From positions 1 to 23,069 of the IMG/VR virus record IMGVR_UViG_3300042310_000736: a DNA stretch of 23,069 nt; one strand, 5' to 3'. Shown piece by piece: positions 1,606 to 21,558 of this stretch (positions are counted from its first letter, which is position 1; each line of letters starts with the position of its first letter). The DNA comes from a virus. Position numbers and translations under genes: made by a program. Under the pieces are notes generated by a model. The model had not been told where the DNA came from, made no database searches, and saw only the letters and a program-made list of their open reading frames with translations.

Positions 1606-1818
1606 ATGGGCTGGTCAAGCGGAACCACACTATTTGAACACGTGATTGAAACGGTGAAATTCCACGTACAGGATTTTGACGCTAGATACAGCATGTATGT
1701 GGAACTCGTCAGCGCTTTTGAAGCCCACGACTGGGACAATCTGGATGAAGTGGTCGGCATCGACCCAGCGTATGACCAATTTTACAATGAGTTCGTGAAA
1801 GAAAACGATGAAGATTGA
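1606..1818 (+). CDS. small conserved phage protein (MGWSSG family)
   Basis: This encodes a 70-residue acidic protein with no signal peptide or membrane segment. A strong ribosome site (AGGAGG) lies just before the ATG. The opening MGWSSG, followed by a helix-rich body and a conserved-looking stretch around FEAHDWDNLDEVVGIDP, matches a small protein family often seen in phage genomes; to my knowledge its function is unknown. Its 3' end overlaps the start of the macro-domain gene by 11 bases, which suggests translational coupling within one early operon. The coding call is firm and the family recognition is from memory. Confidence 0.75.
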   Translation: MGWSSGTTLFEHVIETVKFHVQDFDARYSMYVELVSAFEAHDWDNLDEVVGIDPAYDQFYNEFVKENDED

Positions 1819-2281
1819 ATACGTCAAAGGCTCTGTGATTGATGCGACTGAATCGATTATCGCTCAGGGGTGTAATGCTCAAGGCGTGATGGGATCCGGC
1901 GTGGCCAAGGCCATCCGCGACAGGTGGCCTGAAGTGTTTCCACGCTATAAGGTATTCATTGACGAAATTCGAGCTGCCGGCCGAAATCCTCTTGGCTGCA
2001 CCAACTTCGCTAATGTGGATCCATACGGTGATGATAAAATGATCGTCAATATGATCACCCAGGAGTTTTACGGCCGTGACGGTAAACAATACGTTGACTA
2101 TAATGCCGTGAGAAAATGCATGAATCTCTTAAATAGAAGAGTAGGAATGTTTTCATCTCATCCGCATCGTGTTGCAATGCCTAAGATCGGAGCCGGTCTT
2201 GGTGGAGGTGATTGGGAAATCATTTCTCAAATCATTGAAGAAGAGAGCACTAACTTCCAACCTGTGGTCTATGAACAATGA
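1808..2281 (+). CDS. macro-domain protein (ADP-ribose binding/processing)
   Basis: This is a 157-residue single-domain macro protein. The ADP-ribose-binding signatures are visible: GCNAQGVMGSGVAKAIR (21-37) with the catalytic or binding Asn region and glycine loop, and MPKIGAGLGGGDW (124-136) forming the phosphate-binding loop. Macro domains bind ADP-ribose or hydrolyse ADP-ribose-1''-phosphate and ADP-ribosyl groups; this short form resembles the Poa1p/Appr-1-p processing subgroup. It overlaps the small gene upstream and shares an ATGA overlap with the SLOG gene downstream. In a phage it could process products of tRNA repair or of host or phage ADP-ribosylation, or buffer ADP-ribose-derived defence signals; these roles are inference. 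Family call firm. Confidence 0.88.
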   Translation: MKIEYVKGSVIDATESIIAQGCNAQGVMGSGVAKAIRDRWPEVFPRYKVFIDEIRAAGRNPLGCTNFANVDPYGDDKMIVNMITQEFYGRDGKQYVDYNAVRKCMNLLNRRVGMFSSHPHRVAMPKIGAGLGGGDWEIISQIIEEESTNFQPVVYEQ

Positions 2282-4626: not shown

Positions 4627-5049
4627 ATGAGCATGATTATAGCCAAGCCTACCAAGGAGTCTATCAAAGTCCTTGAGGAATGCGCAGCAGTCCAGAAGAA
4701 AAAGGGCGCTGACTACCAAAACCCCAACAGCAATGTCAAGCAGGCGATGCACTACCGCCGCGGCATTGATTCTATCCACGACCTCCTCCAGGGTAAGCTC
4801 TACAGGGCGCAATCCCTCCTCGAGGCTGCTCACACCCCCAACCAGGCACCGAACTTCGAGTCCATCGAAGACACCTACATGGACCTGATCAACTACGCCT
4901 CTTTCGCCGTCGAGTATCTCCGGGGGAAGATGGATGGCCAAGATCCCAACCGGGACATCTTCAATCGCCCGAAGCCGACCTTGCCGTCGGCCTTGCCGGG
5001 CTCAACTATTTCTAGCATTTCTCATGAAGACAACGGGAAGCACATGTAA
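4627..5049 (+). CDS. Nmad1/DUF1599-like nucleotide-modification-associated protein
   Basis: The product is a 140-residue helical protein. The pattern KKKGADYQNPNSN, then a central segment with Lys/Tyr/Arg (GKLYRAQSLL), then FESIEDTYMDLINYASFAVEYLRG, matches the DUF1599 / nucleotide modification associated domain 1 family, whose members often sit beside phage DNA-modification genes. A clear SD (AAGGA) precedes the ATG. The C-terminal 30 residues are Pro/Ser-rich and look disordered. It directly precedes the dCMP hydroxymethylase gene, with a TAATG stop-start overlap, which supports a link to modified-nucleotide synthesis. The biochemical role is not known; family recognition is moderate. Confidence 0.65.
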   Translation: MSMIIAKPTKESIKVLEECAAVQKKKGADYQNPNSNVKQAMHYRRGIDSIHDLLQGKLYRAQSLLEAAHTPNQAPNFESIEDTYMDLINYASFAVEYLRGKMDGQDPNRDIFNRPKPTLPSALPGSTISSISHEDNGKHM

Positions 5050-5714
5050 TGGCGGAATACATCGAAACCCTAAATGCCTCAGACATTCGCAACATCCTGA
5101 AGGAGCGCCTCCGCCGCGAGCAGTACGTCATCGATAAAACCGGCGTGAAGATGATTGAGATCGTCGGTGCCAGCTTCATCGCTGATGAAGAAGCCATCTT
5201 CGGCGAGGTCAATTGGGATTATGTCCGCCGCGAAATCGCCTGGTACGAATCTGAGTCTCTGAATGTCAATGACATTCCAGGCCAGACTCCAGCCATCTGG
5301 ACTCAGGTTGCTGATGAGACTGGAATGATCAACTCGAACTATGGTTGGTGCATCTACTCCGAGGACAACTGGCATCAATACGATCATGTTCTCGCCGAAC
5401 TGGCTGACAAGCCAAACTCCCGTCGGGCCATCATGATCTACACCCGTCCGACTATGTGGGATGACTATGACATGAACGGCCGTTCTGACTTCATGTGCAC
5501 CAATGCGGTTCAATATCTAGTTCGTGATGGTGCCCTTCATTGCGTGGTTCAGATGCGGAGCAATGATGTTGTCTTCGGTTACAAGAACGATAGGGCTTGG
5601 CAAGACCATGTCCTTCGCCAACTCGCCGCAGATCTCGACCTGCCCGTCGGGAATATTTACTGGCAGGTCGGGTCGCTCCACGTTTATTCTAGACACTTCG
5701 ACTTAGTCAAATAG
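5049..5714 (+). CDS. 42: dCMP hydroxymethylase (T4 gp42 homologue)
   Basis: The enzyme converts dCMP to 5-hydroxymethyl-dCMP using methylenetetrahydrofolate. The whole chain is gp42-like (for example DKTGVKMIEIVGASF, INSNYGW, MIYTRPTMW, MRSNDVVFG, WQVGSLHVYSRH). Counted against E. coli thymidylate synthase landmarks (C146, R166, N177, H207, Y209), the equivalents fall exactly at C150, R170, D181, H211 and Y213. Asp replacing Asn177 is the known switch from a uracil to a cytosine substrate, so dCMP is the expected substrate. At 221 residues it stops right after the HVY motif and lacks roughly the last 25 residues of T4 gp42 (about 246). It starts on the Nmad1-like stop codon (TAATG). It implies hydroxymethylcytosine-containing phage DNA. 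Confidence 0.93.
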   Translation: MAEYIETLNASDIRNILKERLRREQYVIDKTGVKMIEIVGASFIADEEAIFGEVNWDYVRREIAWYESESLNVNDIPGQTPAIWTQVADETGMINSNYGWCIYSEDNWHQYDHVLAELADKPNSRRAIMIYTRPTMWDDYDMNGRSDFMCTNAVQYLVRDGALHCVVQMRSNDVVFGYKNDRAWQDHVLRQLAADLDLPVGNIYWQVGSLHVYSRHFDLVK

Positions 5715-5726
5715 GAGAGAGCAACC

Positions 5727-6029
5727 ATGAGTGATAGAATCAATATTCTAGACCGCATTGACGGTGAGCGCGAATATCAAATCCAGCGATGGGGAACGTT
5801 GGATGAAGAATACAATATGCCGAACGACTTTGTGGCGTACATGTCCCACTACAGCACGAAGTGGTTTGATGGGCAAATCGCCCCATACAATCTTGAAACT
5901 GTGGTCCGCTTTAACGAAGCCATGGTGAAGACTGCTGCCATTGCAGTTGCCGCCGCTGAACTATCGGAAAAGATCATCAACGGTGAAATTGATCGGCCCG
6001 ACATTCTACAAGCTGCAACGGAAGCGTAA
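5727..6029 (+). CDS. conserved small phage protein (GEREYQ..RWG type)
   Basis: This is a 100-residue protein with a good SD (AGGAGA) before the ATG. The N-terminal GEREYQIQRWG followed by a helical body with an E...RFNEAMVKTAAIAVAAAELSE segment resembles a short protein family common in phages, of unknown function to my knowledge. An all-alpha NTP-pyrophosphohydrolase-like fold is possible because of the ExxYQ helix and the helical Ala-rich end, but no full metal-binding motif is visible. The position between dCMP hydroxymethylase and dCMP deaminase, with a TAATG overlap to the latter, points to the nucleotide-metabolism operon. Confidence 0.7.
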   Translation: MSDRINILDRIDGEREYQIQRWGTLDEEYNMPNDFVAYMSHYSTKWFDGQIAPYNLETVVRFNEAMVKTAAIAVAAAELSEKIINGEIDRPDILQAATEA

Positions 6030-6520
6030 TGAAAAACTCTTGGAAGACCAAGTATCTAGACCTAGCCCAACACTTCTCTACGTGGTCCAAGGATCCGAGT
6101 TCTAAAATCGGCGCTGTAACGGTTGCCGATGATGGCCGAGTTCTGACCCAAGGGTACAATGGTTTTCCAAGAGGCATTGCTGACACTCCAGAGCGTCTGA
6201 ACGATAGGCCTACCAAATACGGTCTAGTGGTTCATGCTGAAATGAACTGCATTTACAACGCTGCTGATATGGGCATTAGTCTGAGAGATTCGTCTCTATT
6301 CGTGTACGGGCTTCCTGTATGCGATCATTGCTCGTTGGGTATCATCCAGGCCGGCATCAAGAAGGTCTACATGAGACCTAACTACGAAAAACTCACGCCT
6401 ACATGGTTGGCTTCCTTCCATAACACGGCCAATAACTTTGCAGAGGCCGGAGTCCACTGGGAAATCGAAGTCCCTCGCCTTGAGGGTGTTGAGTACCTGG
6501 AGCTTCATAGGTTCACATGA
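6029..6520 (+). CDS. cd: deoxycytidylate (dCMP) deaminase
   Basis: The enzyme deaminates dCMP to dUMP, the precursor of dTTP. The zinc and catalytic motif HAE (69-71) and the second zinc motif PVCDHC (Cys98, Cys101) are present. The N-terminal AQHFSTWSKDPSSKIGAV and GYNGFPRG segments are typical of the ComEB/T4 Cd deaminase family. Its 163-residue length is normal. It lies next to the dCMP hydroxymethylase gene, so the two enzymes compete for the same dCMP pool, one feeding thymidine and the other hydroxymethylcytosine synthesis, as in T4. It starts at a TAATG overlap and ends in an ATGA overlap with the next gene. Confidence 0.9.
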   Translation: MKNSWKTKYLDLAQHFSTWSKDPSSKIGAVTVADDGRVLTQGYNGFPRGIADTPERLNDRPTKYGLVVHAEMNCIYNAADMGISLRDSSLFVYGLPVCDHCSLGIIQAGIKKVYMRPNYEKLTPTWLASFHNTANNFAEAGVHWEIEVPRLEGVEYLELHRFT

Positions 6521-7710
6521 CAATCACACTGACTCCGTATTACGATGAGTTTCTCCGTTATCATGAACTGGCGAAGAAACAGCAGGATCTCTGCAATCTA
6601 GGATCTGAGTCGTATCTTGGCTCTGTAGGCGATCCGCTTATGGAGCACGTCGAGTTGTATGATGTGGTCGAACGGAAGTATGCCGGCTTCAGCCAGATCG
6701 TCCATGATGTTTGGTACGGTTGGCGAAAAGATCACCCATACTGGAACAAGATGGCAGCCGGCAATGTCTCACGTCAGCGAGAGATGATCGCCAAGGACTG
6801 GACCGGGAAGCACATCGGTCTACCTGAGTTTCTTTATATGCTGATCCTTCACCGGGTCACGGGTTCTGGCATTAACTACGCCGCCAAACCATCCGGTTAC
6901 CATAACTCGATTCTGATGCACCTTCATCAGTGCCATAACGGCGATAACGTGATTACTATGAATAAGATGGTTGATTTCATCAAGCATTACCCATCCACGT
7001 TCATGACATCAGTCGGGTATCAGTTTCCTAAATTCCCTAAGAGCCCAAGTTCTGAATACCGTATTGGCGGAATTTATTATCTCTGTGAATTTGCACCAAA
7101 GCTCGCTAGAGACCTGGCCACGATGCTTCAGGACATCCAAACTCCAGGGCTTGGGATCACTAAACTGACATTTAGACAGCTCGGTGAATGGATGCTCAAC
7201 TGGAATCTAGAGCATGGCCTCGGGCGATATATATTCCAGTACGCGGCCGTGATCGCAGACATTGCCGATTGGCTCCCACAGTATGTGGACCATTCGAGCA
7301 TGTTCTACTACGGGACCAATGCGGTTAACTGCATGGGTTTCATGGGAACGTCCACCAAACTCAAAGGCCAAGATCTCCTTGATGCAATCATGGAGCAGGC
7401 AGTTAAAGACACAGGCGGGCATCCGTATAATCTGGAAGACGTCATGTGTGACACGATCCGGTACGTAGAGAATTACTGCCGGCCCGGAGACGCTTACGGG
7501 CACCTAGACCTTGATAAGGTCTGGAACACGTCCAAGATCATCCACCCGTACGGACGCCAGAAGGCTATGTTGGATCTAGGTCTGGTCAAGACGTTCAATG
7601 ACATCAAACATCACCCCACCGGCGACTCTGTTATCGCAGCTGCCGGCATGAAACCACATGAGTATATTGAGAAAGTGAAAGACCTGCATGGCACTACGCA
7701 GTCACTCTGA
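6517..7710 (+). CDS. putative alpha-glutamyl/putrescinyl-thymine pyrophosphorylase-like (amino acid:DNA transferase) protein
   Basis: This is a 397-residue, mostly helical protein. The blocks HRVTGSGINYAAKPSGYHN (112-130), QYAAVIADIADWLPQYVD (241-258), YYGTNAV (264-270) and EDVMCDTIRYVENY (307-320) resemble the family predicted by Iyer and colleagues to hypermodify phage bases. Members of one clade attach amino acids to phosphorylated 5-hydroxymethyluracil in DNA. The assignment is by remembered motif style and context, not by alignment. Neighbours support it: a gp42-type enzyme upstream and a PLP enzyme overlapping its 3' end by 23 bases. Because this phage makes hydroxymethylcytosine, its substrate may be cytosine-derived, which would be new. 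Other DNA-binding or glycosylase-like folds remain possible. Confidence 0.5.
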   Translation: MTITLTPYYDEFLRYHELAKKQQDLCNLGSESYLGSVGDPLMEHVELYDVVERKYAGFSQIVHDVWYGWRKDHPYWNKMAAGNVSRQREMIAKDWTGKHIGLPEFLYMLILHRVTGSGINYAAKPSGYHNSILMHLHQCHNGDNVITMNKMVDFIKHYPSTFMTSVGYQFPKFPKSPSSEYRIGGIYYLCEFAPKLARDLATMLQDIQTPGLGITKLTFRQLGEWMLNWNLEHGLGRYIFQYAAVIADIADWLPQYVDHSSMFYYGTNAVNCMGFMGTSTKLKGQDLLDAIMEQAVKDTGGHPYNLEDVMCDTIRYVENYCRPGDAYGHLDLDKVWNTSKIIHPYGRQKAMLDLGLVKTFNDIKHHPTGDSVIAAAGMKPHEYIEKVKDLHGTTQSL

Positions 7711-8581
7711 ACACGTCCTAGATGGGCTCAACCGAGATGTTGGCGTTATCGGATGGGAAGCAGCCAAGGAATATTATCTGGGCCTGGCCGAAGGTTGGAA
7801 ACCTTACAACCCAGATCCCATCACAAAAATCCACGAAGGCATTACCGTAGTTCGCGATGACCTCGTAGCCGGTACAAAAACTCGGGCCGCAGATCTTCTT
7901 CTGAGCAGGACACAAGCCGATCGCTTTGTATACGTTCAGCCCCGTACTGGACTTGCTGGGGTATCGCTGCTTCACGCTGCCAAGGTTCACAACCGCGACG
8001 TTACTCTCTTCATGCCATCCTCCAAGAGGATCAGTCTTCACCAGGCCTGCTGCATCGAACAGGGAGCGACTCCTATATTCGAGCGGATTGCGGCTATGCC
8101 AAATCTCAACAAAATTGCAAAGGAATGGTCAGATGACAACAAAGCCTTCTTCATACCCCTCGGGCTTCGTCACGAACTCGCAACTGCGGCCATCGTCACC
8201 GCCGCCTCCACTATACCTGAACCCGACGAGGTCTACGTTGCTATCTCAACTGGGGTTCTTACCAGATCTCTCCAAATCGCATGGCCCAATGCCAAGTTCA
8301 CCGCGGTGGCGGTCGCTAGGAACCTGAAGGCTGGGGAGGCCGGTCCATCAAAGATCATCTCAGAACCCCTAGAATTCCAGACTAGAGAAAAGGAGGAAAA
8401 CCTTCCTCCGTTCCCATGCGTAGAAACCTACGATGGAAAAGTTTGGAAATATATTCCGAAGAACACAGGCCGAAACATTCTATTTTGGAATGTTGGTCAG
8501 AACCCAGTTCTGAAGGATGAAACCATATATGATCGTGTTAACTCGGTAAGAGAGTGGAAGAAGAAATGTCCGGTAGACTAA
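7688..8581 (+). CDS. fold-type II PLP-dependent enzyme (ACC deaminase/tryptophan synthase beta-like)
   Basis: This is a 297-residue protein of the tryptophan-synthase-beta / ACC-deaminase fold. VVRDDLVAGTKTRAADLL (54-71) matches the Schiff-base lysine motif of the ACC deaminase branch (GNKTRK), giving Lys64 as the PLP lysine. A PRTGLAG loop replaces the usual Ser/Gly/Asn loop that binds the substrate carboxylate, and a later AISTGVLTRSL loop matches the phosphate-binding glycine loop. The domain is shorter than ACC deaminases (about 338). PLP enzymes occur in phage base-hypermodification pathways, where they process amino acid adducts. It starts inside the preceding gene (23-base overlap), which strongly couples the two. 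The exact reaction is unknown. Confidence 0.72.
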   Translation: MALRSHSEHVLDGLNRDVGVIGWEAAKEYYLGLAEGWKPYNPDPITKIHEGITVVRDDLVAGTKTRAADLLLSRTQADRFVYVQPRTGLAGVSLLHAAKVHNRDVTLFMPSSKRISLHQACCIEQGATPIFERIAAMPNLNKIAKEWSDDNKAFFIPLGLRHELATAAIVTAASTIPEPDEVYVAISTGVLTRSLQIAWPNAKFTAVAVARNLKAGEAGPSKIISEPLEFQTREKEENLPPFPCVETYDGKVWKYIPKNTGRNILFWNVGQNPVLKDETIYDRVNSVREWKKKCPVD

Positions 8582-9126
8582 CAGTAACCTGCGGCCCGAT
8601 GTTTGCCGGCAAATCTACGGCCCTTCAGAGTGACATCGAGCTGTTTGCTAGCCCATACCGGGTTTTCAAGCCCGAGCTTGATACTAGAAGCCCAGGCCGA
8701 ATCGTCTTGCATAATGGTAGCTATATTGATGCCATAGAGATAGATGCCACAGACGGGTCGCTGTGCGCACATCTAGATGAAGGTGTTAGAACCATCTTTA
8801 TTGATGAGATCCAGTTCTTCGGGCCCTGGATTACTCGTGAGATCATTTATTTGATCTTGGAGCAAAATATTGATGTACATGTTTATGGACTTGATTTAGA
8901 TTATAAAGGTGGGGCCTGGCCACGCATGTCGGAACTACTGCCGTTGGCAGATGAGGTCCACAAGCTGAAGGCTGTGTGCCAGATGTGTGGGAAGTTCGCT
9001 TCCAAGACTGTTCGCATCTCCCACGAAGAATACCAAAACCAGGTCATGGTCGGCGCAGCTGACCTGTATGAACCTAGGTGCAACCTCCACTTTACAGAGC
9101 ATTTTCATGAAGATATTGCTGACTAG
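8566..9126 (+). CDS. tdk: thymidine kinase (type II)
   Basis: The enzyme phosphorylates thymidine or deoxyuridine to the monophosphate. Walker A is GPMFAGKS (10-17), Walker B with the catalytic Glu is FIDEIQFF (78-85), the lasso/active-site GLDLDYKGG is at 108-116, and the zinc ligands are C138, C141, C172 and H175. I chose the ATG at 8566 (186 residues), which overlaps the PLP-enzyme stop by 16 bases; an in-frame GTG at 8554 would add four residues. T4 also encodes a type II thymidine kinase. Here it sits inside the putative base-modification run, so it may supply thymidine nucleotides or simply share the operon. Confidence 0.92.
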   Translation: MSGRLTVTCGPMFAGKSTALQSDIELFASPYRVFKPELDTRSPGRIVLHNGSYIDAIEIDATDGSLCAHLDEGVRTIFIDEIQFFGPWITREIIYLILEQNIDVHVYGLDLDYKGGAWPRMSELLPLADEVHKLKAVCQMCGKFASKTVRISHEEYQNQVMVGAADLYEPRCNLHFTEHFHEDIAD

Positions 9127-10183
9127 TCCGGTAACGCCTATCTCGGAATCCGAGTACTCGCACCGGTCTGCTCAAGCTGAGATTTATGCTCAGATGATCT
9201 ATGATACCTTCGACTGCCCTATCGGCAATTTAGAAGTGGTCATTAACTATCGGAACAAGATCAAGGACTATTCAGATTTTGATCTCGTCTACGTCTATCA
9301 CGGCAATGACTGGGGTGGAGCGCTGAACCTATTCGGGGGCATCAGCGGTTTGTCAGATCCAGAGGGTTTGGTCGCTTTGCATAAACTCGACACCAAGAAT
9401 GTGGTGTCTATTGCAATCCCAATGCCTGATTACGCCGGCCTTCTGAGGAAGAGGCTGAAGCCTGGTGAGAAGTTCGACTCTATCTTGGACGAACTCCCAG
9501 AGAATACCCCGATGACCTACGCGGTCACCCCAGTATCGTTCGAGGGAACGTCCAACTTGGTCATCGGGGACTCACACGCTATTTGCATGTATCGCCCGGG
9601 CTGGGAAGTCCTGTCGGTTCCGTTCAAAACTTTGCATGGTGCCTTGACCGGCTCTGGCGGTATTCGCCAGCTGGTAAAGGATAAGTTTGAACACTCCGGA
9701 CACTTCGAGCACCTCGAGTTCTATTTCGGCAACATTGATATTCGCCACCACCTGATGCGTCAGCCGGAGCCTAAGGTTGCTACGATCGATTTGGCCAGGA
9801 GATATTTTGCAGAAGTCGAAGGCCGCTTCCCTAGTGCGCTGACCAAATCCATCTATGAGCCGCTTCCGATTGAGGACGAATCTCGGAAGCTCCCCAAAAC
9901 TGGATATTACAAGGGTCTTCCTTTTTACGGAACGTGGGAAGAGCGCAACAATATACGAGAACTGTTCGCTGCCACCCTAGAGAAACTATGTGCGGGCAGC
10001 TCGGTCAAGTTCATTCGATGGACCGACTATCTCAAAAATGCGCAAGGCCAGCTTGATTTCAAACACATGGAGAAGCCTAGGTCTGTCCATTTGGCTCGTG
10101 CTTCGTATCCGCATTGGCAAGGCATGAACAAAATTCCTGAAGCCGTAACTCCAACCTCATCGCTCGAAGGCTTTTTCACTTGA
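9107..10183 (+). CDS. GDSH-containing protein, possible SGNH-hydrolase-like
   Basis: This is a 358-residue protein starting MKILLTSP; the frame is open further upstream, but those residues lie inside the thymidine kinase gene and look like frame shadow. LVIGDSHAICMYRPGW (151-166) resembles block I (GDS) of SGNH/GDSL esterases, FGNIDIRHHL (207-216) resembles the G-x-N-D block, and SVHL (326-329) could be the terminal histidine block, though the usual Asp of DxxH is not seen. SGNH enzymes are esterases or acyltransferases. The protein follows the hydroxymethylation, PLP and kinase genes and might act in base modification or on host surface glycans. I recognise the pattern only, not a family. 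Confidence 0.6.
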   Translation: MKILLTSPVTPISESEYSHRSAQAEIYAQMIYDTFDCPIGNLEVVINYRNKIKDYSDFDLVYVYHGNDWGGALNLFGGISGLSDPEGLVALHKLDTKNVVSIAIPMPDYAGLLRKRLKPGEKFDSILDELPENTPMTYAVTPVSFEGTSNLVIGDSHAICMYRPGWEVLSVPFKTLHGALTGSGGIRQLVKDKFEHSGHFEHLEFYFGNIDIRHHLMRQPEPKVATIDLARRYFAEVEGRFPSALTKSIYEPLPIEDESRKLPKTGYYKGLPFYGTWEERNNIRELFAATLEKLCAGSSVKFIRWTDYLKNAQGQLDFKHMEKPRSVHLARASYPHWQGMNKIPEAVTPTSSLEGFFT

Positions 10184-10713
10184 TTGACTTTCTCACCCAA
10201 ATTAAACAAGACCTGCACCTCTCTGGTCAAATCGACGCCCTAGTCGCTGAGCCGGAAAGCTCATGGGTCTGGCAGGTTCCTGCAGGCGGACTTGTTATGG
10301 GAGCTAGGGCTTTTGAGGTGACTATGGAAGTCAGAGACGGCGTCAATTCCGACGGTACCATTCATACCGCAGACGGCCTCACATTTCAAATCTACAAACA
10401 ACCCCGATCAAAGGAACCATCAATGACAGATACCCCATCAAAAGTCGAATATCGGTTTGATGAAGACAAACTTCTGGCTGAGATTGGGGACTATATCGCT
10501 GGCACATACTCGAAACATTACGCAACCAACGGCGGCATTCAGGCAATGGATGCCATTACAGCTACGGGCGCAGGTGTAGGATTCTGCGTTGGCAATATCC
10601 TGAAGTACGCTTGGCGCCTCGGTAAGAAAGATGGATTTAACAAACTTGACATCATGAAGGTGATTCACTATTCGATCATCCTGATGTTCATTATGAAGAA
10701 GGAAACCAAATAA
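10180..10713 (+). CDS. DUF3310-type domain protein with N-terminal extension
   Basis: This is a 177-residue frame. The C-terminal part (from Met82, position 10423) carries KHYATNGGIQAMDAI, VGNILKYAWRLGKKDG and DIMKVIHYSIIL, the signature of DUF3310, a phage protein family of unknown function. A clear SD (AAGGAA) precedes the internal ATG at 10423, so a 96-residue DUF3310 protein may be made alone. The N-terminal 81 residues start at a TTG overlapping the previous stop, with AAGG upstream; they look protein-like (Trp-containing, mixed charge) and are of unknown role. Fused, nested or two-product reading are all possible. It ends in a TAATG overlap with the vWA gene. Confidence 0.65.
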   Translation: MIDFLTQIKQDLHLSGQIDALVAEPESSWVWQVPAGGLVMGARAFEVTMEVRDGVNSDGTIHTADGLTFQIYKQPRSKEPSMTDTPSKVEYRFDEDKLLAEIGDYIAGTYSKHYATNGGIQAMDAITATGAGVGFCVGNILKYAWRLGKKDGFNKLDIMKVIHYSIILMFIMKKETK

Positions 10714-11323: not shown

Positions 11324-12187
11324 ATGTCATTTGAACTAACCGTCCAACGCGAAGACCTGAAGAAGCAGAAGCTCTTCATTGCCACCCCCATGTACGGCGG
11401 CATGTGCGCCGGCATGTATTGCCGATCCATCGCCGACCTGAGTGCCCTCTGCACTGCGTACGGTATTTCACTCCAGATCTACTACCTCTTCAATGAGAGC
11501 CTGATCACCAGGGGCCGGAATTATTGCGTCGATGAGTTCCTACGTTCTGGCGCCGACCATTTGATGTTCATTGACGCTGACATCGGCTTCGATCCGAAAG
11601 ACGTCATCGCCCTCATGGCCATGCAGATGTCTGACCCTGCGAAGTACAACATTGTCTGCGGTCCTTATCCTAAGAAGTCCATCTCTTGGGAGAAGATCAA
11701 GCTGGCCGTTGACAAGGGCTTTGCCGATGAAAACCCTAACGACCTCGACAAGTTCGTTGGTGATTACGTCTTCAACCCAAAGGGCGGAACGCAGTCTATC
11801 TCCCTTGGCGAACCAGCTGAAGTTATGGAAGCCGGCACCGGCTTCATGATGATTCACAAGGACGTGTTCCCTAAATATCGGGAAGCATATCCTGAGCTGA
11901 GCTACAAGCCGGACCACGTTCGCTCTGAGCATTTCGACGGGACCAGAGAAATCCACGCCTACTTCGACTGCATCATCGATCCTGATACCAGACGGTACCT
12001 CTCTGAGGACTACATGTTCTGCTATAACGTCAACAAGATGGGTGGTCACATCTGGCTTTGCCCATGGATGAGATTGCAACACGTCGGGACTATGATCTTC
12101 GGCGGCTCTCTTGCTGATCTTGCATCAATCGGTGCATCCGCCACAGCGGATCCGAAGGCGATCACGAAAAACAAGAGAAATCAATAA
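11324..12187 (+). CDS. GT-A-like glycosyltransferase
   Basis: This is a 287-residue protein with features of a GT-A glycosyltransferase: an N-terminal Rossmann-type strand (KLFIATPMYGG), NESLITRGRNYCVDEFL (57-73), the metal/sugar-nucleotide DxD motif in MFIDADIGF (84-86), GTGFMMIHKDVF near the middle and a C-terminal HVGTM block. It lacks transmembrane segments, so it should be soluble and act in the cytoplasm. Such enzymes transfer sugars from UDP- or GDP-sugars; in a phage that makes hydroxymethylcytosine, glycosylation of that base is an attractive role but is not shown. Modification of host lipopolysaccharide is the main alternative. An SD-like AAGGAA precedes the ATG. Confidence 0.75.
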   Translation: MSFELTVQREDLKKQKLFIATPMYGGMCAGMYCRSIADLSALCTAYGISLQIYYLFNESLITRGRNYCVDEFLRSGADHLMFIDADIGFDPKDVIALMAMQMSDPAKYNIVCGPYPKKSISWEKIKLAVDKGFADENPNDLDKFVGDYVFNPKGGTQSISLGEPAEVMEAGTGFMMIHKDVFPKYREAYPELSYKPDHVRSEHFDGTREIHAYFDCIIDPDTRRYLSEDYMFCYNVNKMGGHIWLCPWMRLQHVGTMIFGGSLADLASIGASATADPKAITKNKRNQ

Positions 12188-17325: not shown

Positions 17326-19161
17326 TTAACCGATGATGATGGCTGTCCGGCGCCCCGGCAGTTGATCACGAACCGCGCCGGCTCCTGATGCTATTACCCC
17401 GCCGAGCAACACACTCGTCATCGAGGAAATATCTACAGCACCATCAGCCTGCGACATAGAATCTTGCAGGATGATAGACGCACCGCCGGAGATGTATGTT
17501 TGACCAGAACTGGAAACTAAAGTAGAGCCGAGGATTTTTGTAACCATAGCCCCAGCTATGGCGCTCGCTGTCGAAGATCCCGAAGCCGAAGCTAAAGTCT
17601 TGTTAGTATTTGCCGAGATAGTAGCCGCAGCAGATGACGAAGCCGTTAGGTCTGCTAGAGTTTTATCCAATGTTGCTGTAAGAATATCAAATTCTGTGCT
17701 AGCACTGGAAATAGCTGTTGCTGGTTCTAAAGTGAAATTAGCGCTTGCAACAATCTCACTGTAAACGTTTGAATCCGAATCTACAACGGCAGGGCTTAGC
17801 GATACCTCTGCTGTGGCAATGATGGCAACAGCCCCAGACGATGTAGAAGTTGCAGGAGCAAGTTGCCCTGCTATATAGGCTTCAATCGAAACTGACGCCG
17901 ACCCAGATGATGTTACAGCCCCGAGGGTTTGCGATATATTAGCGGTAACAGTGGCAGTGGCACCAGACGATACAGCCGCCGTTTCCAATGTTAGTGTCGC
18001 ATCAGCACTTACGATAACCCCGGTTTCAGCCGTAAGACTTGTTTCTCCTAAGGTTGAAGAGGCCGCTCCGGAGGCGATAACAGATGTCGTAGATGCGACA
18101 TTCATTGCACTCAGTGACTTGTTTAGGTCGGCGACCACATCAGTTAGCGCCAGACCATCGCCTGTTGCTGTAGCGGTAGATCCTGCAGCGGCGTCGCCGG
18201 CCCCTTCGGCGATAGCAACACCAACACCAGATGCAGAAGTTTCACTAGTAGAAGCCGCGTCGCTGGGAATTACGCCAGTTCCTTCAGCAGTAATTGTTGC
18301 CGCGCCGCCGGCATCTCCAACCCCAATACCCGTGGCAATACCTTCGGCAGAACTTGTAGTAGCACCGGCAGATGAACCGGAAGCTGAAGTGAATGCATCT
18401 ACTGTAGTGCCGACGGCACTCGCTGTTGCGGCCCCAGACGCCGAGCCAATGGCCGTGTTTGGTCTTTCGTAGAAGACCGCCGCCATCATGGTGTGAAGGG
18501 CTGACAAGCCAGCCGTGGCCGATATTTCTCCTGTGGCCCCGGCTGTCGACTGAACCGCGTCTGCGACGCCTAGCTGAGAGGACGGCGACAAGGAGGTTCC
18601 GCTGTTCACCCTGCGCCGCCAAGCCCCGGCGGCTATCTCTCCAGCGGCGGTTTCAGTGCTGGACCCGCTATCGGTCGCAGGGTCTGTTGCTGCGTCAAAT
18701 GCGGTTACGTTTGTGAACCGGGCAGCGGAGGCGCCCACGACTATGAGAGAATTGTTGTTCGACGGGGTCACGCTTCCCGTGGTCATCGCCGTGCTGGCGG
18801 TGGATAGCTGGCGCGAAGACGAGACGTCAAAAAGGGGCGAAAGACCCCTATAGGCTACAATCACAGACCGGCATCGCCCGCTGCCTGTACGGGCGAAACT
18901 CGTGTCGATGTTGGCCGCGCCCTTCACGGCATACGCCATCGTGATGGCTGAGGCGGACGCCGTGGTTTCGTTTGTGGAGTTGCCGTCTGACCGACGCTCG
19001 ATCAGGGTCCATGTTGAGCCCAAGGAGAACGTGCAAGTTCCTCGGGTGGCCAGTATCAATACGACAAGGTCGCCGTTCTGCACACCGGCGGGCCAGCCGG
19101 GAATGGCTGCGCCCGCCGTCGAGTTGTGAACTGTACCTGCGGAGACGAACTCGAAGGACAT
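17326..19161 (-). CDS. tail-fibre-like protein with 21-24-residue tandem repeats
   Basis: This is a 611-residue Ala/Ser/Thr/Gly-rich protein likely on the virion. Residues 1-230 (MSFEFVSAGTVHNST ... MMAAVFYER) form a beta-rich domain of a type often found in phage tail proteins. From about 230 to 345 and again to the C-terminus there are degenerate tandem repeats of about 21-24 residues, with units such as TLADLTASSSAAATISANTNK and TLASASGSSTASAIAG. Such repeats suit a beta-structured fibre shaft. SD GGAGGGG precedes the ATG. The DNA of the N-terminal domain is far richer in G+C (40 of 60 at 18901-18960) than the repeat part (24 of 60 at 17641-17700), so it appears mosaic. No catalytic motif is seen. 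Confidence 0.75.
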   Translation of the reverse strand: MSFEFVSAGTVHNSTAGAAIPGWPAGVQNGDLVVLILATRGTCTFSLGSTWTLIERRSDGNSTNETTASASAITMAYAVKGAANIDTSFARTGSGRCRSVIVAYRGLSPLFDVSSSRQLSTASTAMTTGSVTPSNNNSLIVVGASAARFTNVTAFDAATDPATDSGSSTETAAGEIAAGAWRRRVNSGTSLSPSSQLGVADAVQSTAGATGEISATAGLSALHTMMAAVFYERPNTAIGSASGAATASAVGTTVDAFTSASGSSAGATTSSAEGIATGIGVGDAGGAATITAEGTGVIPSDAASTSETSASGVGVAIAEGAGDAAAGSTATATGDGLALTDVVADLNKSLSAMNVASTTSVIASGAASSTLGETSLTAETGVIVSADATLTLETAAVSSGATATVTANISQTLGAVTSSGSASVSIEAYIAGQLAPATSTSSGAVAIIATAEVSLSPAVVDSDSNVYSEIVASANFTLEPATAISSASTEFDILTATLDKTLADLTASSSAAATISANTNKTLASASGSSTASAIAGAMVTKILGSTLVSSSGQTYISGGASIILQDSMSQADGAVDISSMTSVLLGGVIASGAGAVRDQLPGRRTAIIIG

Positions 19162-20508: not shown

Positions 20509-20838
20509 TTACCTGGTTACAGTAGGAATCACTTTGTACTTGCCATAAACCACGAAGTCTTCGCGGTCGGGCCACACTACCTTTACATCATATTTACCAC
20601 TCTGCGGCGTCAAATTTGCCGATTGACCTGCAGTTAGTGAAACCCAAAGGGTTACGTTGTTTGCGGAAAACGCACAATTGGCTTCGGCCGCCACGTCAGA
20701 AGCATGTGGCTCACCCCTAAACTGACATTTAGCACTTGTAGCTGTGGCAAAAACATTGTTGTTGCTAGAATCCGTTAGCTGAAGCCCAAATTTGAAGGTC
20801 TCGCCTTGATAGATTTCTAGATCGTGCTTAGTAGGCAT
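20509..20838 (-). CDS. small tail/baseplate-type structural protein
   Basis: This is a 109-residue beta-sandwich-like protein, first gene of the minus-strand fibre cluster. The pattern DLEIYQGETFKFGLQLTD ... AKCQFRG ... GKYDVKVVWPD ... YGKYKVIPTVTR matches a widespread phage structural domain resembling upper-baseplate or fibre-attachment proteins. I start at the ATG at 20838, with GGGGA five bases upstream; a TTG four codons earlier is possible but overlaps the SD. The TATAAATA box at 20862-20869 lies 23 bases upstream, suitable for a T4-type late promoter driving this cluster. Confidence 0.75.
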   Translation of the reverse strand: MPTKHDLEIYQGETFKFGLQLTDSSNNNVFATATSAKCQFRGEPHASDVAAEANCAFSANNVTLWVSLTAGQSANLTPQSGKYDVKVVWPDREDFVVYGKYKVIPTVTR

Positions 20839-20861
20839 TTCATTCCCCAAATATCTTGCTA

Positions 20862-20869
20862 TATTTATA
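20862..20869 (-). promoter_or_regulatory. T4-type late promoter box TATAAATA
   Basis: The exact T4 late consensus TATAAATA is present on the minus strand in the 66-base gap between divergent genes, 23 bases before the first fibre-cluster gene. It is in the right place and orientation to drive virion genes. In T4 such promoters need gp55, gp33 and the gp45 clamp; of these, only gp45 is encoded in this window. Confidence 0.7.
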
Positions 20870-20870
20870 T

Positions 20871-20902
20871 GTACATAAATTCCAGCCTATCGTACATTGA
20901 TA
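20871..20902 (+). promoter_or_regulatory. paired GTACAT promoter/operator motif before RNA ligase
   Basis: On the plus strand, GTACAT at 20871-20876 and GTACATTGATAA at 20892-20903 are spaced 21 bases apart, directly before the RNA ligase ATG at 20905. The first box sits in a 10-bp perfect palindrome (TATGTACATA). The same pair precedes the minus-strand esterase gene. The second box is too close to the start codon to leave a usual leader, so if it is a promoter the transcript is nearly leaderless, or the boxes are a protein-binding site. Confidence 0.45.
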
Positions 20903-20904
20903 AA

Positions 20905-21558
20905 ATGAATCAGGCCCGTTACAAGTACCCGAGCACACCACACCTACCGTTGTCCAAAGGACGACAGTGGGATGACACCGCTCTTGACGGCTATGCGAAT
21001 TTCATCGGCCACGAGGTCGTGATCACGGAGAAAATGGACGGTGAGAATGCTTCCCTTTACCATGGCTGCTATCACGCCAGATCCCTTGATTCTCGCCACC
21101 ATCCTTCTCGTGATTGGATTAAGTCTTTTTGGGGTCGCGTTCGGTTTGACATTCCCGACGGCTGGCGCTTCTGCGGAGAAAACCTCTACGCTGCTCACAG
21201 CGTCAAGTATGATTCTCTGCCTAGCTACTTTATGCTATTTAGTGTTTGGGATCATAACAATTATTCTCTGAGCTGGGATGAAGTCGAGTTCTGGGCAGAT
21301 CTTCTGGGCATAGATACTGTGCCTGTTCTTTATCGTGGTCCATTTGATAAGACCATCGTCGAGAAGATTGCTCGAGAACAGGATCCTGAGAAATCTGAGG
21401 GCTTCGTGATCCGCAACGCCAACTCATTCCACTTCGACGACTTCTCTAAGAATATGGGAAAGTATGTTCGAGTTAATCACGTGCAAACGGACACCCACTG
21501 GATGCACGCTGAAATCATCCCTAACCAACTGAAAGTAAATCAACATGAACCTGTATAA
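20905..21558 (+). CDS. RNA ligase (covalent nucleotidyltransferase family)
   Basis: This is a 217-residue ATP-dependent ligase. Motif I is EKMDGEN with nucleotidylated Lys43, motif III/IIIa is around RFCGENLYAAHS with Glu92 and LFSVWD, motif IV is SEGFVIR (164-170) and motif V is KYVRV (186-190). It consists mainly of the catalytic nucleotidyltransferase domain, with a short C-terminus. Such phage ligases seal nicked RNA, for example tRNAs cut by host defence nucleases. No polynucleotide kinase is visible beside it, but a phosphoesterase gene lies just downstream. The frame is open 27 codons upstream; I chose the ATG at 20905 because the protein-like sequence starts there and it avoids the opposite gene. 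No strong SD is seen. Confidence 0.85.
   Translation: MNQARYKYPSTPHLPLSKGRQWDDTALDGYANFIGHEVVITEKMDGENASLYHGCYHARSLDSRHHPSRDWIKSFWGRVRFDIPDGWRFCGENLYAAHSVKYDSLPSYFMLFSVWDHNNYSLSWDEVEFWADLLGIDTVPVLYRGPFDKTIVEKIAREQDPEKSEGFVIRNANSFHFDDFSKNMGKYVRVNHVQTDTHWMHAEIIPNQLKVNQHEPV

Follow-up and report, generated by a model that had tools for sequence, protein, structure and literature searches.

What becomes of 5-hydroxymethylcytosine (5hmC) in a phage whose hydroxymethylase gene keeps company with genes that recall the thymine-decorating phages? The question is raised by the virus record IMG/VR IMGVR_UViG_3300042310_000736, 23,069 bases long (the window), and in particular by its positions 5049-10183, the region analysed here. 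There a T4 gp42-type dCMP hydroxymethylase, a dCMP deaminase, a protein that I call X, a pyridoxal phosphate (PLP) enzyme and an SGNH protein are encoded together. I propose, with moderate confidence, that these genes are a post-replicative cytosine hypermodification cassette, which puts an amino-acid-derived group on 5hmC by an activation step different from that of the thymine pathway. The chemistry of the pyrophosphorylases and amino acid:DNA transferases (ADDTs) has been described for 5-hydroxymethyluracil, and the 5hmC tailoring known to me is by sugar or carbamoyl. If the proposal is true, then a kind of DNA base not yet described is made by relatives of enzymes known so far only in thymine-decorating phages, and a cassette present in hundreds of uncultured phages adds a class of DNA base, probably with new activation chemistry. 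An earlier note on this DNA had offered an amino-acid-derived cytosine as its central idea. That idea survives the present analysis and appears strengthened, with the final base a prediction.

Which base is the precursor? The best solved relative of the hydroxymethylase is T4 dCMP hydroxymethylase (1b49, E 2e-83, residues 7-220). The earlier note had read Asp181 as standing where thymidylate synthase (TS) has asparagine, and this is borne out: Asp181 aligns with T4 Asp179, and the next structure match, 6l18, has asparagine at exactly that site. Among hydroxymethylase relatives from the same cassette, Asp181 is invariant (58/58) and so is the catalytic Cys150 (57/57). In X-bearing viral records the cytosine-type aspartate is present in every non-TS homologue of TS that was found (16 of 16 of the gp42 type and 3 of 3 of a second subfamily), while the true TSs of those records carry asparagine. 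One of the records, L003, additionally encodes a separate true TS. In the deaminase, H69, E71, C98 and C101 are invariant in 37 of 37 sequences; TS homologues of the Asp177 type and dCMP deaminases have been associated with contigs whose cytosine is experimentally modified (PMC8670742). A cytosine-type precursor, as the note had supposed, is strongly supported by the homology to gp42 together with the aspartate. The second subfamily with aspartate, distinct from gp42 and recognizable by an FVCTMY motif, occurs in L127, L264 and L270, records of an SGNH-X-PLP clade.

There is another way for an enzyme of this superfamily to act on dCMP. The window enzyme shares just 32% identity over 112 aa with RB69ORF048c, a protein annotated as similar to dCMP hydroxymethylase, which I take to be the RB69 5-hydroxy-dCMP synthase. 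RB69-type phages make 5-hydroxy-dCMP by a TS-superfamily enzyme (PMC13390438). Such an identity for 5049-5714 was considered and rejected, the protein being close in sequence to T4 gp42 and distant from RB69ORF048c, and 5-hydroxymethylation of dCMP rather than 5-hydroxylation is the prediction supported by sequence.

What, then, might act on the hydroxymethyl group? Protein X is encoded at 505 confirmed viral loci and has no meaningful sequence match in Pfam, NCBIfam, PHROGs, PDB sequences or 50,697 phage records; the few models that did score were unrelated and below threshold, and were disregarded. Its AlphaFold model, built from 55 sequences (mean predicted local distance difference test score, pLDDT, 85.8; predicted template modelling score 0.86), supersedes an earlier one from 10 sequences (pLDDT 68). 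When the model is compared by Foldseek with viral predicted structures, the top match is a 54% identical protein labelled 'Amino acid:DNA transferase domain-containing' (template modelling score, TM, 0.85), followed by two uncharacterised proteins (26% and 23% identity). The named matches with a probability of at least 0.85 are only the ADDT domain, clade 1 of aGPT-Pplase, HMUDK_hel of PhiW-14 and the 5-hmdU DNA kinase of SP10, these names being UniProt labels and not tests of membership. Against the PDB the model finds nothing significant; among the weak matches are OGG1 glycosylases and the 5-phosphomethyl-dU glycinyltransferase of a Pseudomonas phage, 8z2n.

The earlier note had assigned the PLP enzyme to fold-type II, and its profile is homologous to that of the PLP enzyme in the cassette of Pseudomonas phage M6 (hhalign 97.6%, E 3e-12). 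The two proteins have a common ending, PFP..YD.K.W...FWN.G, and the Schiff-base lysine, Lys64, is invariant in 71 of 71 sequences. The DNA of M6 holds 5-(2-aminoethyl)-dU, made from 5hmdU via a DNA kinase (PMC6449724). The PLP enzyme and the fold of X are the reason for supposing that the attached group derives from an amino acid.

The GDSH protein is also as the earlier note described it: S156, G178, N209 and H328 are invariant in 24 relatives, including those of Aeromonas phages 44RR and Aes012. When the profile of its N-terminus is compared with the PDB, T4 beta-glucosyltransferase (beta-GT) is the sole protein matched, in register, at E 0.34, and several of the relatives match the Pfam family of that enzyme, below its cut-off. 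That this N-terminus should coincide with an enzyme of 5hmC DNA is suggestive. In some cassettes the SGNH gene adjoins a homologue of C5-cytosine methyltransferases (L051:14354-15559, PF00145 E 4.6e-16; L006:15949-17151).

Do these genes belong together? In 180 X-bearing loci there are 135 with the PLP family, 135 with SGNH, 87 with the hydroxymethylase family and 79 with a relative of the DUF1599 protein, at a median of 1.6 kb upstream of X. Close neighbours, no more than 4 kb from X, were counted at the 86 X loci flanked on either side by 3 kb or more of sequence: SGNH is such a neighbour at 74 of them, PLP at 71, the hydroxymethylase at 46, and a protein called c3 at 54. The genes are conserved as one cassette over about 180 loci. 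In the window itself the open reading frames (ORFs) are intact and overlap as reported earlier (6029-6520/6517-7710/7688-8581/8554-9126), with the cluster inside 5049-10183. Two further contigs carry the same cassette, L002 (X 100% identity) and L003 (a 198,633-base record, X 99%), which excludes an assembly artefact.

The second conserved protein, c3, has about 330 aa and in many relatives is encoded downstream of X; neither the window nor the L003 record has it. For c3 there is no meaningful match among phage records, Pfam, NCBIfam, PHROGs or PDB sequences. In hhalign comparisons its score against HMUDK_hel goes up to 32.3, the highest background score being 22.0, and X against c3 exceeds 22 background families both ways (25.2 and 27.3 vs 23.5 and 23.3). 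In one clade (for example L014:9128-12644) an HhH-GPD glycosylase-like gene accompanies X, an uncharacterised gene and c3, with hydroxymethylase, PLP and SGNH not nearby. A gene resembling the uracil-DNA glycosylase (UDG) superfamily stands just upstream of X at L047:9552-9998; its family, found in 45 loci, recalls the UDG-like gene of M6.

The proposed pathway would run as follows. In a first step, strongly supported by sequence, 5-hydroxymethyl-dCMP would be produced by the gp42-type enzyme and built into DNA by the phage polymerase, and the deaminase would balance dCMP against dUMP. X, as a helical base-accessing enzyme of the ADDT/HMUDK-helical superfamily, would then load the 5-hydroxymethyl of cytosines in DNA with an amino-acid-derived group. 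Next, the attached amino acid would be reworked by the PLP enzyme, which is of the M6-cassette family. The SGNH protein would use its beta-GT-like N-terminal domain to recognize 5hmC DNA and may make or break an ester, either at the hydroxymethyl or at the group attached to it. The likely benefit is resistance to host restriction.

A number of results weigh against this proposal. The Pfam model of ADDT, PF18724, finds nothing at E 10 in six X-bearing records, and it does find its positive controls (M6 2e-48, ViI 5e-60, PhiW-14 4e-12). At the same threshold PF18746 (aGPT-Pplase3) has no match in 16 such records and PF18723 (HMUDK_hel) none in 9. With the orthologue of X set aside, the Foldseek matches to named families have E values of 0.003-0.2 and TM 0.32-0.40. 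Aligned by hhalign with HMUDK_hel or ADDT, X is not above a background of 22 families, though the method is insensitive here, because known M6 paralogues rank just slightly above background. As to the SGNH protein, PF00657 is matched by 3 of the 24 relatives (best E 0.0038) and PF09198, the T4 beta-GT family, by 6 of the 24 (E 0.0016-0.023, residues ~52-110), in both cases below the cut-off; the copy in the window matches neither. In some X-bearing records no hydroxymethylase is detected, among them L014 (174 kb, no PF00303 match), though records may be incomplete. Lastly, a profile of the M6-type DNA-base kinase finds no such kinase in 15 X-bearing viral records, which are up to 256 kb long and possibly incomplete.

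The likeness of X to the pyrophosphorylase/ADDT family, which the earlier note had claimed, has therefore to be divided. By predicted fold it is favoured, Foldseek placing the model of 6517-7710 with ADDT, aGPT-Pplase1 and HMUDK_hel proteins; by the Pfam models PF18724, PF18723 and PF18746 it is not, and hhalign leaves it within background. The family is a fold-level proposal, since the models of membership miss X. The protein probably works and folds like the ADDT/pyrophosphorylase/HMUDK_hel superfamily, judging from its predicted structure, and I stop short of counting it among the tested members.

It is chiefly by this kinase gap that the system departs from the thymine pathway. The earlier note had seen no DNA-base kinase in the window, and none of a known type is there (best profile E 1.4); beyond the window, the best match of the kinase profile in X-bearing records is a 26-residue P-loop match at E 0.026. 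With the known kinase undetected, activation must either proceed in another way or depend on an enzyme that is unrelated to it or was not sequenced. One may imagine that the pathway is thymine-like after all, that an ordinary 5-hydroxymethyl-base DNA kinase lies elsewhere in the genome or has diverged too far to be found, and that SGNH is accessory. Since X-bearing records may be incomplete, and since the excess of c3 over background against HMUDK_hel would put a kinase-partner-like protein in many cassettes, this is possible, though I would not expect it: the profile that finds the kinases of M6 (1e-88), PhiW-14 (5e-61) and ViI (1e-25) finds none in the 15 records, and in M6 the kinase and the helical domain adjoin. 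Two candidates within the window were considered and rejected. The thymidine kinase at 8554-9126 is an ordinary PF00265 protein confined to the window and its two near-identical contigs, L002 and L003, and so lies outside the conserved set; the PHROG label 'nucleotide kinase' for 10180-10713 comes from a match that covers only the DUF3310 part.

A specific form of the proposed cytosine cassette does without a kinase, SGNH taking its place. The beta-GT-like domain would hold 5hmC DNA, esterification by SGNH would turn the hydroxymethyl into a leaving group, X, assisted by c3 where present, would displace the ester using an amino acid, and the PLP enzyme would rework the product. I put this forward as a tentative and rather doubtful idea. 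In phages of the 44RR type it is SGNH that is joined to a helical-domain-like region; in the SP10-type protein the partner of the helical domain is a kinase.

It is less probable that the decoration is plain sugar, 5hmC being glycosylated by a nearby glycosyltransferase (GT)-like protein while X, PLP and SGNH handle a sugar-linked group or something else. A GT-like gene (11324-12187) does lie 1.1 kb downstream of the cassette, GT-like genes occur in 57 of the 180 loci, and the SGNH gene of Aeromonas phages 25 and Aes012 stands beside a UDP-galactopyranose mutase gene and a GT-like ORF. Yet phage DLP_6 has a 66% identical homologue of the window's GT within a PDF-GT-clamp array, a region with no cassette genes annotated. 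The GT therefore probably belongs to a T4-like replication array and is not specific to the cassette, of which I rejected it as a member. Neither X nor PLP has relatives among sugar-pathway enzymes, and the enzyme that PLP does match comes from M6, whose base bears an aminoethyl group (PMC6449724). Modification of the nucleotide (5hm-dCMP or dCTP) instead of DNA is very unlikely: the hydroxymethylase and deaminase do act on mononucleotides and a thymidine kinase sits inside the window's copy of the cassette, but that kinase is confined to 3 loci, the fold of X and the N-terminus resembling T4 beta-GT suggest enzymes that work on DNA, and the known counterparts act post-replication (PMC6449724).

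How does the cytosine cassette proposed here compare with known systems? The M6 region runs UDG-like gene, ADDT, PLP, radical-SAM-type gene (my reading), P-loop kinase, HMUDK_hel and TS-family gene. It shares with the window a TS-family hydroxymethylase, a helical base enzyme (in the window a candidate, X) and a homologous fold-type-II PLP enzyme, and in some relatives of the window a UDG-superfamily-like gene adjoins X. It differs in that the window has a gp42 relative with the cytosine-type aspartate, an X that the ADDT model misses and an added SGNH protein, and in that no P-loop DNA kinase is found alongside X. With the 5hmC pathway of T4 the window shares the gp42-type hydroxymethylase (~57-59% identity) and, putatively, the beta-GT-like N-terminal domain of its type of SGNH protein; in contrast, no T4-type glucosyltransferase is recognized in the window cassette. 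I know of no T4 counterpart of X or PLP. The 5hmC carbamoyltransferase contigs found by MetaGPA (PMC8670742) likewise combine an aspartate-type TS homologue, a dCMP deaminase and a tailoring enzyme to give a non-sugar derivative of 5hmC, but there the tailoring is by an O-carbamoyltransferase and not by an X/PLP/SGNH set.

The Aeromonas phages 44RR2.8t, UP87, 25 and Aes012 have the same SGNH protein, and X was not found in them. Phages 44RR, 31 and 25 possess gene 42 and lack the T4 glucosyltransferase genes (PMC2993671), and whether such phages carry other modifications is a question left open in that report. In 44RR2.8t the protein (ORF233c, L234:8001-10388, 795 aa) is an SGNH domain with a C-terminal HMUDK_hel-like region; the best Pfam match of this region is PF18723, at E 0.0036 in 44RR and 0.0022 in UP87. 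In phages 25 (L274) and Aes012 (L273:773-4047) the SGNH gene stands alone beside the sugar-type genes already mentioned, the mutase being typed by Pfam in Aes012 (PF03275 E 5e-54), and galactofuranosyl-type decoration of 5hmC is possible in these two. The cassette also bears on what replaces glucosylation in T4 relatives that keep gene 42 without glucosyltransferases, and the Aeromonas phages that share SGNH are cultured, hence assayable now.

Coordinates of the cassette and neighbouring features are collected below. For the SGNH gene the most likely start is 9107 (MKILLTSP...), because relatives start there; 8987 is merely the limit of the ORF.

Features in and around the proposed cassette (positions in the window)
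Feature	Position	Strand	Remarks
DUF1599 'nucleotide modification associated domain 1' protein	4627..5049	+	directly upstream of hydroxymethylase; PF07659 E 1.1e-5
T4 gp42-type dCMP hydroxymethylase, 221 aa	5049..5714	+	PF00303 E 3e-22; Cys150 (5496-5498), Asp181 (5589-5591)
100-aa ORF	5727-6029		between hydroxymethylase and protein X
dCMP deaminase	6029..6520	+	PF00383 E 4e-16; phrog_174 E 2e-40; between hydroxymethylase and protein X
Protein X, candidate amino acid:DNA transferase-like helical enzyme	6517..7710	+	Foldseek matches of AlphaFold model
Fold-type-II PLP enzyme	7688..8581	+	PF00291 E 1e-4 (below cut-off); phrog_7093 E 2.5e-33; Lys64 in GxK motif (7877-7879)
Thymidine kinase, accessory	8554..9126	+	PF00265 E 7e-34; between PLP and SGNH genes
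SGNH (GDSH) protein with T4 beta-glucosyltransferase-like N-terminus	9107..10183	+	GDSH at 9566-9577
Glycosyltransferase-like protein	11324..12187	+	phrog_1574 E 5e-63

Elsewhere in the window, judged by eye from the sequence, are a macro-domain-like protein (1808-2281, plus strand) and an RNA-ligase-like protein (20824-21558, plus strand). A 611-aa protein rich in alanine, serine and threonine is encoded at 17326-19161 on the minus strand, amid a run of minus-strand ORFs.

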